Assembly: GCA_013289795.1 (NCBI GenBank)
Contig: JABCZH010000009.1
Location: 1 to 64,000 of the forward strand
Length of the DNA stretch: 64,000 nucleotides
DNA from: Acidobacteriota bacterium
GTDB lineage: Bacteria; Acidobacteriota; Terriglobia; Terriglobales; Acidobacteriaceae
Reading direction: 5' to 3'
Shown one piece after another: positions 22,079 through 28,565 of this stretch. How positions within the stretch are numbered: position 1 is the first letter of the stretch; every line of letters begins with the position of its first letter. The notes beneath the pieces were generated by a model, which saw only the letters and a program-made list of their open reading frames with translations, was not told the origin of the DNA and made no database searches. Both the position numbers and the translations under genes were made by a program.

Positions 22079-22102
22079 GCGACGCGACGGCAAGAACTCT
22101 AG

Positions 22103-22127
22103 GGCGGCGAAGACGCCGCCTTTTTTT
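22103..22127 (+). terminator. Rho-independent terminator
   Basis: A perfect 7-bp GC stem (GGCGGCG at 22103-22109, CGCCGCC at 22114-22120) with loop AAGA is followed by seven T residues (22121-22127). It lies 24 bp after the small secreted protein gene. It rules out the TTG at 22126 as the start of the following DedA gene, since that codon lies in the T-run. Confidence 0.92.
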
Positions 22128-22164: not shown

Positions 22165-23136
22165 GTGAATCCGCTCTTCGCACTCATCGCGCGCCATCGC
22201 TACCTCCTGACCTTCCTGGTGGTACTGTCGGAGGCCATTGGCCTGCCGGTGCCGGCGGCTCTGGCTCTGGTGGCGGCCGGGGCAGGAGTGGCCTCGAAGG
22301 CGCTGAATGGCCCACTGGCCATGGGTGCGGCGTTGTCCGCAATGCTGCTGGGCGACACCCTGCTGTTTGTCTTGGGCCGTTACATGGGCTGGACGCTGCT
22401 GGCCGTTCTATGCCGGTTGTCGGTGAACCCGGAGAGTTGCGTTTTGCGTTCGGCGGAATCGTTTTACAAGCGGGGAAAACTCACGCTGCTGTTTGCTAAG
22501 TTTATTCCCGGTGTTAATACCATGGCGCCTCCGCTGGCAGGAAGCATGAAGATGCGTCCGCTGCAGTTTCTGCGGTTCGATCTGACCGGCGCGACGCTGT
22601 ACATCCTGGCCTACGGCGGCATGGGTTTCCTGTTCCGCGATTTTCTGGCAGCCATTACCCGTGGCTTGCAAGCTGCAAGCCATGTGTTTGGAGAAGTGCT
22701 GTTCACTGCAGCCCTGGTCTATACCGGCTATCGGGTGTGGATCTATCGCAAGAACCTGGTGTATAAGGTCGTGCCGCGGGTGCAGGTCGAGGAACTGGCA
22801 AGGAAGCTGGCTTCTGATGAGGCAGCCAAAGTGGTGCTGGTGGATGTGCGGAGCCATGGTTACTACGATCCCGACGCATCCCGTATCAAAGGCTCCATCC
22901 GGATTGAGCCGAACAATCTGTACGAAGAGCTGAAAACACTTCCAAAGGACAGGGACATCTATCTTTACTGTACTTGAGCACGCGAAGCGACCAGCGCCCG
23001 GGTGGCGCTGCAACTGGAAGAGAAGGGGTTCAAGGCGTTTGTGATTGTTGGTGGCCTGGCAGCCTGGCGGAAAGCGGGACATGCATTGGAACCGGTGCCG
23101 CGTGATGATTTGGTAAAGCTGCCAACGTTTTCGTAA
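22165..23136 (+). CDS. DedA membrane protein fused to rhodanese, candidate selenoprotein (in-frame TGA)
   Basis: Residues 1 to about 195 form a DedA/SNARE-associated membrane domain with the motif AKFIPGVNTMAPPLAG (FIPG at 113-116). A rhodanese domain follows, with VVLVDVRSHGYYDPD and, after the stop, IVGGLAAWRKAG. The frame meets TGA at 22975-22977, directly after the catalytic-loop YCT (C269), then continues open for 52 codons. That continuation is ordinary rhodanese sequence (REATSARVALQLEEKG) and ends with TAA at 23134. In relatives as I recall them this position is cysteine (YCTC), so Sec271 would replace Cys. A 7-bp hairpin with loop CGGGU starts 14 nt after the TGA. GTG 22165 was chosen as start because it aligns with DedA N-termini and avoids the terminator. 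A nonsense mutation or sequencing error is the alternative; no sel genes are in the window. Confidence 0.75.
22975..22977 (+). other. In-frame TGA, candidate selenocysteine codon
   Basis: This TGA interrupts the rhodanese domain at the second residue after the active-loop cysteine (C-T-TGA). Reading frame, domain homology and codon pattern continue unchanged on the far side up to TAA at 23134, so it is not a frameshift. Selenocysteine, readthrough and point mutation of TGC/TGT are the possibilities. Confidence 0.6.
22992..23010 (+). promoter_or_regulatory. SECIS-like hairpin downstream of the TGA
   Basis: CAGCGCC (22992-22998) pairs perfectly with GGCGCTG (23004-23010) around the 5-nt loop CGGGT (22999-23003). 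The loop lies 21 nt after the TGA, inside the 16-37 nt range given for bacterial SECIS elements, and contains GGU as in the E. coli fdhF loop. There is no bulged U, and a 7-bp GC stem can arise by chance in GC-rich coding DNA. Confidence 0.5.
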
Positions 23137-27320: not shown

Positions 27321-28565
27321 ATGTCCATCACTCGCCGCATATTTCTTCGCAATAGCGCAATGGCCGCGGTCGGTACAGCGGCCATCCCGTCGTTCCTTAC
27401 CCGCGCTGCATATGGCGCGGTGGAGTCCGGGACACGCACCAAGCGCCTGGTAGTCATCTTTCAGCGTGGCGCGGCGGACGGTCTCAACATCGTGGTGCCC
27501 CACGGCGAGCCGGCTTACTACGCGATGCGGCCGTCCATCAACATTCCCCGCAAATCGGTCATTGATCTCGACGGCTTCTTCGGGCTGCATCCCTCGCTCG
27601 CAGCTTTCCAGCCTCTGTGGAACCAGCGCCACCTGGCGATTGTGCATGCCGCGGGATCACCCGATCCAACGCGGTCGCACTTCGACGCGCAGGATTTTAT
27701 GGAGTCCGGCACGCCCGGCTTGAAGGCGACTGACGATGGATGGCTCAACCGCTGTTTGCATGACCTGCCTGCTCCGGCCGACAAGTCGGCATTTCGCGCT
27801 ATCGCCCTGGGGCCTTCCCTACCGCGAATTCTTTCTGGCAGTGAACCTGCGTTGGCCGTGAACAACGTCAACGATTTTGGGGTAGGCGGTCGTGGCGCCA
27901 ATGCCACGCCCATGTCCAATACGTTCGAAGCGATGTATGCGCAGTCGGTGGATTCGGTGCTGCACGGCACCGGACAGGAAACCTTCGACGCAGTGAGGAT
28001 GCTGAAGTCGGCCGATCCTTCAAAGTACAAACCGGCGGCAGGAGCGGATTATCCCAAGGGCCGGTTTGGCGACAGCCTGAAACAGCTCGCGCAACTCATC
28101 AAAGCCAATCTTGGAGTGCAGGTCGCATTCGCTGACATCGGCGGCTGGGACCACCACGTGAACGAAGGCAGCACCCAGGGCCAGATTGCGAATGTTCTGA
28201 CGGAGTTTTCACAGTCGCTGGCCGCGTTTTGGACCGACCTCGGCGACTTGAGAGAAGACACCGTCGTCGTGACCATGTCCGAGTTTGGGCGCACCGCGCG
28301 GGAAAATGGCAATCGCGGCACCGATCACGGTCATGCCAACGTGATGTTCGTGATGAGCGGCCCGGTTAAGGGCGGCAAAGTCTACGGGCGCTGGCCCGGC
28401 TTGAATCAGTCGCAGCTGTACGAAGGCCGCGATCTGGCGCTGACCACGGATTTCCGCCAGGTGCTGGGTGAGGCGGTGTATTCACATCTGGGGAATAGGG
28501 CGCTGAGTGAAGTGTTTCCAGGTTTCGAGAATCAGCCGGGGAAATTTCTCAGGTTGTTCGCGTGA
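27321..28565 (+). CDS. DUF1501 family protein, Tat-exported
   Basis: This 414-residue protein has an N-terminal twin-arginine signal (TRRIFLRNSAMAAVG). The mature part shows the DUF1501 pattern: RLVVIFQRGAADGLNIVVP, an alkaline-phosphatase-like fold segment FADIGGWDHH, and VVTMSEFGRTARENGNRGTDHGHAN, which supplies putative metal ligands. It follows the DUF1800 gene by 66 bp and is probably cotranscribed. Its end is 6 bp from that of the convergent Rieske gene. Substrate and pathway are unknown. Confidence 0.92.
   Translation: MSITRRIFLRNSAMAAVGTAAIPSFLTRAAYGAVESGTRTKRLVVIFQRGAADGLNIVVPHGEPAYYAMRPSINIPRKSVIDLDGFFGLHPSLAAFQPLWNQRHLAIVHAAGSPDPTRSHFDAQDFMESGTPGLKATDDGWLNRCLHDLPAPADKSAFRAIALGPSLPRILSGSEPALAVNNVNDFGVGGRGANATPMSNTFEAMYAQSVDSVLHGTGQETFDAVRMLKSADPSKYKPAAGADYPKGRFGDSLKQLAQLIKANLGVQVAFADIGGWDHHVNEGSTQGQIANVLTEFSQSLAAFWTDLGDLREDTVVVTMSEFGRTARENGNRGTDHGHANVMFVMSGPVKGGKVYGRWPGLNQSQLYEGRDLALTTDFRQVLGEAVYSHLGNRALSEVFPGFENQPGKFLRLFA

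Follow-up and report, generated by a model that had tools for sequence, protein, structure and literature searches.

Gene, reading frame, and domain layout

The stretch of DNA analysed here (the window) comprises 64,000 nucleotides from the start of contig JABCZH010000009.1 of an acidobacterial genome (GCA_013289795.1), and carries on its forward strand a DedA-rhodanese gene of 323 residues which starts with GTG at 22165, contains an in-frame TGA, and stops with TAA at 23134-23136 (Table 1). The genes metG, tatD, yajQ, and a polyprenyl synthase gene lie upstream and a CYTH gene follows. This order is kept in relatives L050-L055 as far as their contigs reach; L056 keeps the upstream genes with no CYTH match, polyprenyl synthase and CYTH genes flank the fusion in L018 and L021 as well, and none of these neighbor genes was found within the short flanks of more distant fusions. 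A polyprenyl synthase gene beside a DedA gene fits lipid-carrier metabolism, although it proves nothing. By eye, an inverted repeat rich in GC and then a run of T, together resembling an intrinsic terminator, sit at 22100-22127 between an upstream small ORF and the DedA gene.

Table 1. Features of the DedA-rhodanese locus, in window coordinates
Feature	Position	Strand	Remarks
Predicted DedA-rhodanese selenoprotein gene	22165..23136	+	alignment with homologues of comparable length begins at the first residues
VTT/DedA domain	22264..22626	+	PF09335 match
C83, first Cys of the DedA-domain pair	22411..22413	+	invariant in 53/53 aligned fusions
C92, second Cys of the DedA-domain pair	22438..22440	+	invariant in 53/53 aligned fusions
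Rhodanese domain	22789..23073	+	PF00581 match, one TGA inside
C269 (TGT)	22969..22971	+	Cys two residues before the predicted Sec; Cys in 53/53 aligned fusions and 78/78 loci
TGA, predicted to be read as selenocysteine (U271)	22975..22977	+	TGA here in 59 loci; associated with selB
Bacterial SECIS-like stem-loop	22992..23010	+	7 bp; loop CGGGU at 22999-23003

Two Pfam models match the read-through product above their gathering scores: PF09335 (VTT_dom; 38.2-41.3 bits, cut-off 33.9) and PF00581 (Rhodanese; 46.2-50.1 bits, cut-off 22.2), the latter over residues 209-303, so that the match crosses the TGA. In a predicted structure (model m711ebb035016, pLDDT 85.1, with Cys in place of Sec) the C-terminal domain has the rhodanese fold, superimposing on E. 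coli GlpE (1gmx) by VIA-align with a Z score of 13.6 and an rmsd of 2.3 over 103 residues; the PDB matches of the model are to the rhodanese domain, and the structural comparison therefore covers that domain and not the DedA fold. Codon differences 3′ of the TGA in the two relatives compared are mostly synonymous (16 synonymous and 6 non-synonymous for L050, 17 and 8 for L051). Thus, as is characteristic of bacterial selenoprotein genes, homology continues beyond the in-frame UGA. The original prediction had placed the TGA two residues after C269, with 52 codons of rhodanese homology from there to the TAA; the codon count and all coordinates of gene and TGA proved correct. Were TGA annotated as a stop, such gene models would end within the rhodanese domain, at residue 270.

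Codon 271 alternates between TGA and cysteine codons

Some match to one or the other domain is found in 289 of the 396 Acidobacteriota genomes searched, and the near full-length homologues listed have either TGA or no stop, with a single exception that has TAG ("no stop" meaning no stop inside, the bases themselves having been read for 19 non-TGA loci only). Codon 271 was read in 78 loci, including the window gene (L017), and is TGA in 59, TGC in 13, TGT in 5, and TCC in 1; these counts are not a rate, since 40 of the 78 loci were chosen for a listed stop and 39 of those for a TGA listed somewhere inside. In all 39, the TGA proved to be at codon 271. The same codon thus alternates between Sec and Cys, another hallmark of bacterial selenoproteins, and relatives with Cys there, which the original prediction mentions, account for 18 of the 78 loci. 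Mapped onto a 57-fusion tree, the Sec/Cys label requires four changes, each forced by starred branches, so that at least four Sec/Cys changes have occurred within one family. Many related bacteria appear to share the TGA-read DedA-rhodanese arrangement of this soil acidobacterium. The TCC locus (L082, G249:C5) is a paralogue which also has an internal TAG and lies in a selB-less genome; it looks like a decaying copy.

Selenocysteine machinery

The source genome (4.67 Mb, 99.91% complete) contains selA (535.3 bits), selB (369.8 bits), selD (364 bits), and a tRNA-Sec gene (selC) with a UCA anticodon (66.9 bits), all above curated cut-offs, as expected of a genome that makes selenoproteins. Its selD gene also contains a TGA in frame (L060 2392-2394, G000:C1), within A-A-G-U-A-S-K; downstream lies a SECIS-like hairpin whose 3-nt loop, GGC, occupies +21..+23. 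SelD is thus probably a selenoprotein too, which brings the number of genes that probably use selenocysteine in this genome to at least two.

Across the phylum the TGA form is associated with selB. In the survey of 396 genomes, counting the 88 listed near full-length matches (first residue 1-51, last residue 305-323), selB is present in 29 of 30 genomes with a TGA form versus 3 of 39 without one (Fisher p = 5.8e-15, kinship ignored). Partial or split matches were excluded, and the count thereby leaves out G221, a selB-positive genome with a Cys-form fusion. G055 combines a TGA form and selA with no selB match, and non-TGA forms occur in the selB-positive genomes G394, G068, and G043. Among nine further metagenome-assembled genomes (MAGs), seven have a readable TGA and all seven have selA; four of them have selB, one (G403) as a partial match below the cut-off, and the other three (G396, G398, and G399) have selA with no selB match at 1e-60. 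A MAG with TGC (L054) has neither selA nor selB, and the ninth locus (L055) ends before codon 271.

A SECIS-like hairpin seen in TGA forms only, among the genes compared

The hairpin (arms 22992-22998 and 23004-23010) begins 14 nt after the TGA, with the loop 21 nt after it, and the predicted folding energy is -11.8 kcal/mol alone and -14.0 with flanks; stem length, loop sequence, and both distances are exactly those originally predicted. The available text of PMC13188914 gives limits for bacterial SECIS elements of a 3-9 nt loop, a 4-16 bp stem, 16-37 nt spacing, a G in the first two loop bases, and an MFE of at most -7.5, and adds that an N1-N2 loop pair is formed in most members of the bSECIS model. 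With its 5-nt loop, 7 bp, G in second place, 21 nt, and -11.8 kcal/mol, the window hairpin lies within the limits quoted there. The N1-N2 pair is absent, as the first and last loop bases are C and U; the SECIS-like spacing and loop originally claimed therefore hold for these main limits but not for the loop pair.

Generic folding energy was tried as evidence and dropped because it did not separate the Sec and Cys sets, both of which, over the 42-nt region following the codon, barely exceed synonymous shuffles in stability (mean z of -0.39, Sec, and -0.34, Cys). We used instead a position-specific test, in which the 42 nt after the codon were aligned without gaps and scored for a stem of at least 5 bp closing a 5-nt loop at +22..+26. 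This hairpin is present in 45 of 58 TGA genes (30 of 38 DedA fusions and 15 of 20 others) versus none of 18 Cys genes; sampling synonymous codons according to the genes' own usage leads one to expect about 3.4 of the 58 (1.8 of 38 plus 1.6 of 20) and 0.8 of the 18. L057 was excluded because its contig ends too soon. The other 13 of the 58 form no 5-bp stem at this position, and for several TGA genes the minimum-energy structure of the 42 nt differs from this hairpin. Among the genes compared, then, the hairpin is conserved only where TGA is present, the pattern by which the original prediction could be judged.

Within the stem, columns 18 and 30, which largely fall on the third positions of Ser and Ala codons, covary: A30 accompanies T18 in 7 of 8 sequences and C18 in 0 of 46, three of the seven T18/A30 sequences (L087, L097, and L098) being near-identical. 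The covariation score of 0.129 was reached by 0 of 500 shuffles, a score that related sequences can inflate, and 94.3% of cells are paired in the stem versus 23-67% when it is slid out of register. Two-sided changes occur at only one of the five pairs, a count reached by 386 of 500 shuffles; the six further pair types were reached by 18 of 500; and two-sided cells number 8 in register and 10 when slid by +1. The case for covariation is carried by the paired cells and the covariation score.

Taken together, the sel genes, the Sec/Cys alternation, and the confinement of the hairpin to TGA forms among the genes compared strongly support the originally predicted reading of the TGA. We regard it as almost certain that SelB and tRNA-Sec would insert selenocysteine at the UGA at 22975, with the downstream stem-loop as the directing signal, and the predicted product is a membrane protein with an N-terminal DedA/VTT domain and a C-terminal rhodanese domain bearing a C269-x-U271 pair.

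A cysteine pair in the DedA domain

In an alignment of 53 fusions (35 with TGA and 18 with Cys), C83, C92, C269, and position 271 are among the columns that never vary; TGA was translated as Cys in this alignment, so that invariance at 271 means Cys or Sec. The alignment holds 53 of 54 qualifying matches, L082 having been dropped; also outside it are the partial matches L020, L055, L057, and L058, and L034, which has two stops in the matched stretch. The C83/C92 pair is present in 4 of 4 proteobacterial Cys-form fusions as well, and is absent both from 15 unfused DedAs of the phylum (of the 16 fetched, L123 gave no match and is not counted) and from the three other DedAs of the source genome, all unfused. 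The pair therefore largely tracks the rhodanese fusion. Three close relatives of the fusion's DedA domain lack a rhodanese: L128 and L130 keep Cys-Cys, and L129 (G265:C4) has His at both positions, a hint of metal binding; a metal site would also fit L128 and L130.

In the predicted model a presumed re-entrant hairpin comes after the C83/C92 loop; next are helices 132-156 and 172-202, which from the DedA literature we take to be membrane-crossing, and then the rhodanese domain. With one re-entrant hairpin and two membrane-crossing helices between them, the C83/C92 loop and the rhodanese domain would end up on one side of the membrane. Lys/Arg residues are abundant in the loop and in the stretch leading into the rhodanese domain alike (4.3 and 4.5 per segment, versus 2.7 and 0.7 acidic residues), which by the positive-inside rule makes these two segments probably cytoplasmic; in this model the loop and the rhodanese domain would thus share one face of the membrane, probably the cytoplasmic one.

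Other TGA-form rhodaneses

Judging from their domain matches, the TGA-form CxU rhodaneses at the C-terminus of a Na_H_Exchanger domain (PF00999) in L084, L086, L093, and L096 (G379, G086, G025, and G242) represent a second fusion of a membrane transporter to a predicted Sec rhodanese. Of the 16 other TGA-form rhodaneses without DedA, 12 stand-alone loci (L083, L087, L088, L090, L091, L094, and L097-L102) have starts that by eye resemble signal or lipoprotein signal peptides; if real, these N-termini would imply an extracytoplasmic Sec rhodanese.

Proposed mechanism and alternatives

In active thiosulfate sulfurtransferases, the canonical catalytic loop begins at the catalytic Cys. HMMER alignments are split as to which residue of the window protein corresponds to it: position 271 aligns with the catalytic Cys of 6mxv domain 1 and 1yt8 domain 2, and the alignment with 6mxv domain 2 favors C269. 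We favor U271 as the nucleophile, since wherever Sec occurs in the loci read it stands at 271, not at 269; most likely U271 replaces the rhodanese catalytic Cys and C269 serves as its resolving partner. U271 could then pick up oxidizing equivalents or sulfane sulfur, as Se-S(H) or as a C269-U271 selenenylsulfide, and exchange these with C83/C92, whereby the redox or persulfide state of the cell would control or repair the DedA transporter.

We wish to stress that these proposals differ greatly in strength. That the protein is a selenoprotein with the DedA-rhodanese layout, leaving any relay aside, is very probable. The relay from U271 to C83/C92 is speculative, and our confidence in it is well short of even. 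A still wider idea, that the CxU rhodanese is a selenium redox or persulfide control module of Acidobacteriota membrane transporters (DedA and cation/proton antiporters) which switches or repairs DedA through C83/C92 and would thereby tie recycling of envelope lipids to sulfane sulfur or redox state through a selenoenzyme, strikes us as unlikely to hold as a whole.

The alternative that deserves most weight accepts the selenocysteine and makes DedA a mere anchor: it would tether a Sec sulfurtransferase or persulfide reductase to the membrane, and C83/C92 would bind metal or play a structural part. This has a substantial chance of being right, if not quite an even one. It is consistent with the match of a rhodanese-related (seleno)protein model (NF041203, see below) to the window protein and to every aligned fusion; with the module also being found on its own, in many cases behind a signal-peptide-like start, and attached to antiporter-like proteins; and with His-His in L129 and Cys-Cys in the rhodanese-less L128 and L130. 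A mere anchor fits less well with a Cys pair that is invariant in all 53 aligned fusions and all four proteobacterial ones yet missing from the 15 phylum and three own-genome unfused DedAs.

Those alternatives that deny selenocysteine altogether fare far worse, and we reject them. The TGA could be a true stop, or the gene a pseudogene, yielding a truncated 270-residue protein with a decaying remainder; the TGA is after all in frame, and the full-length product is a predicted one, but TGA occupies this very codon in 59 loci spread over many families of the phylum, synonymous differences outnumber non-synonymous ones 3′ of it, and the TGA form is associated with selB, all of which makes a stop or pseudogene very improbable. 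Hardly credible at all are a sequencing or assembly error for TGC or TGT, for which a one-base difference would suffice but which sits ill with the recurrence of this TGA in assemblies whose sampling projects bear different names and with a hairpin found, among the genes compared, in TGA forms only; and a variant code in which UGA is generally read as an amino acid, which would explain readthrough both here and in selD but not the presence of a full Sec system, nor that one of 11 window genes checked (27321-28565) ends in TGA.

Comparison with known systems

The Y-C-x-U rhodanese motif is itself already known. NF041203 (rhodanese_LYCAU, "rhodanese-like domain-containing protein form 3", CxU) is likewise, by its listing, a rhodanese with Sec two residues after Cys (YCxU), and CxU rhodanese selenoproteins are listed in the available parts of two reviews, PMC13188914 (2026) and PMC9312934, parts in which the word DedA does not occur. 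NF041203 is the best NCBIfam match of the window protein, whose motif at the TGA (LYCTU, Y-C-T-U with U as residue 271) conforms to the Y-C-x-[UC] of the family; the whole-protein score is 84.4 bits, below the cut-off of 115. The NF041203 model is 126 residues long, whereas the window protein additionally has a DedA domain. The model matches 53 of 53 aligned fusions, and one of ten related TGA-form proteins without DedA that were scanned (L083) passes its cut-off.

DedA-rhodanese fusions are also known (PMC10127716 and PMC12893004, from the portions available). Cys-form fusions such as P. aeruginosa PA1209 (known to us from its literature description, and not aligned) and Xanthomonas sacchari WP_043095768.1 have the same architecture, COG0586 with PF00581; the four proteobacterial Cys-form fusions we compared have the same C83/C92 pair, with Cys rather than Sec at 271 and Cys at 269. 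TsoB (NF045694, rhodanese/DsbD fusion-like) is, by its listing, a rhodanese selenoprotein joined to a DsbD-like part, but it is listed with two Sec in UxxxxU, unlike the window protein; its model matches 4 of 53 fusions at 0.001. The UptA/DedA undecaprenyl-phosphate transporters share the VTT domain, to which the window protein adds the rhodanese domain and the Cys pair; two UptA models match 49 and 48 of the 53 fusions, and against one of them, NF052605, the window protein scores 29.7 bits, far below the cut-off of 300.

In Occallatibacter riparius, the one acidobacterium tested according to the available text of PMC12013277, three known selenoprotein genes and no new ones were found. A search of open-license PMC papers, which can give only a weak negative, turned up no paper on a Sec form of the DedA-rhodanese fusion. 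Given a known Sec module, an architecture we did not find described, and a Cys pair that tracks the fusion, we consider this a new architecture of a known module: what is new here is i) the C83/C92 pair in the DedA domain, and ii) a further fusion of the Sec rhodanese, with antiporter-like proteins as partners. How rhodanese domains connect to undecaprenyl phosphate is called unclear in a 2023 paper on DedA subfamilies (PMC10127716); the C83/C92 pair is a directly testable candidate for that link.
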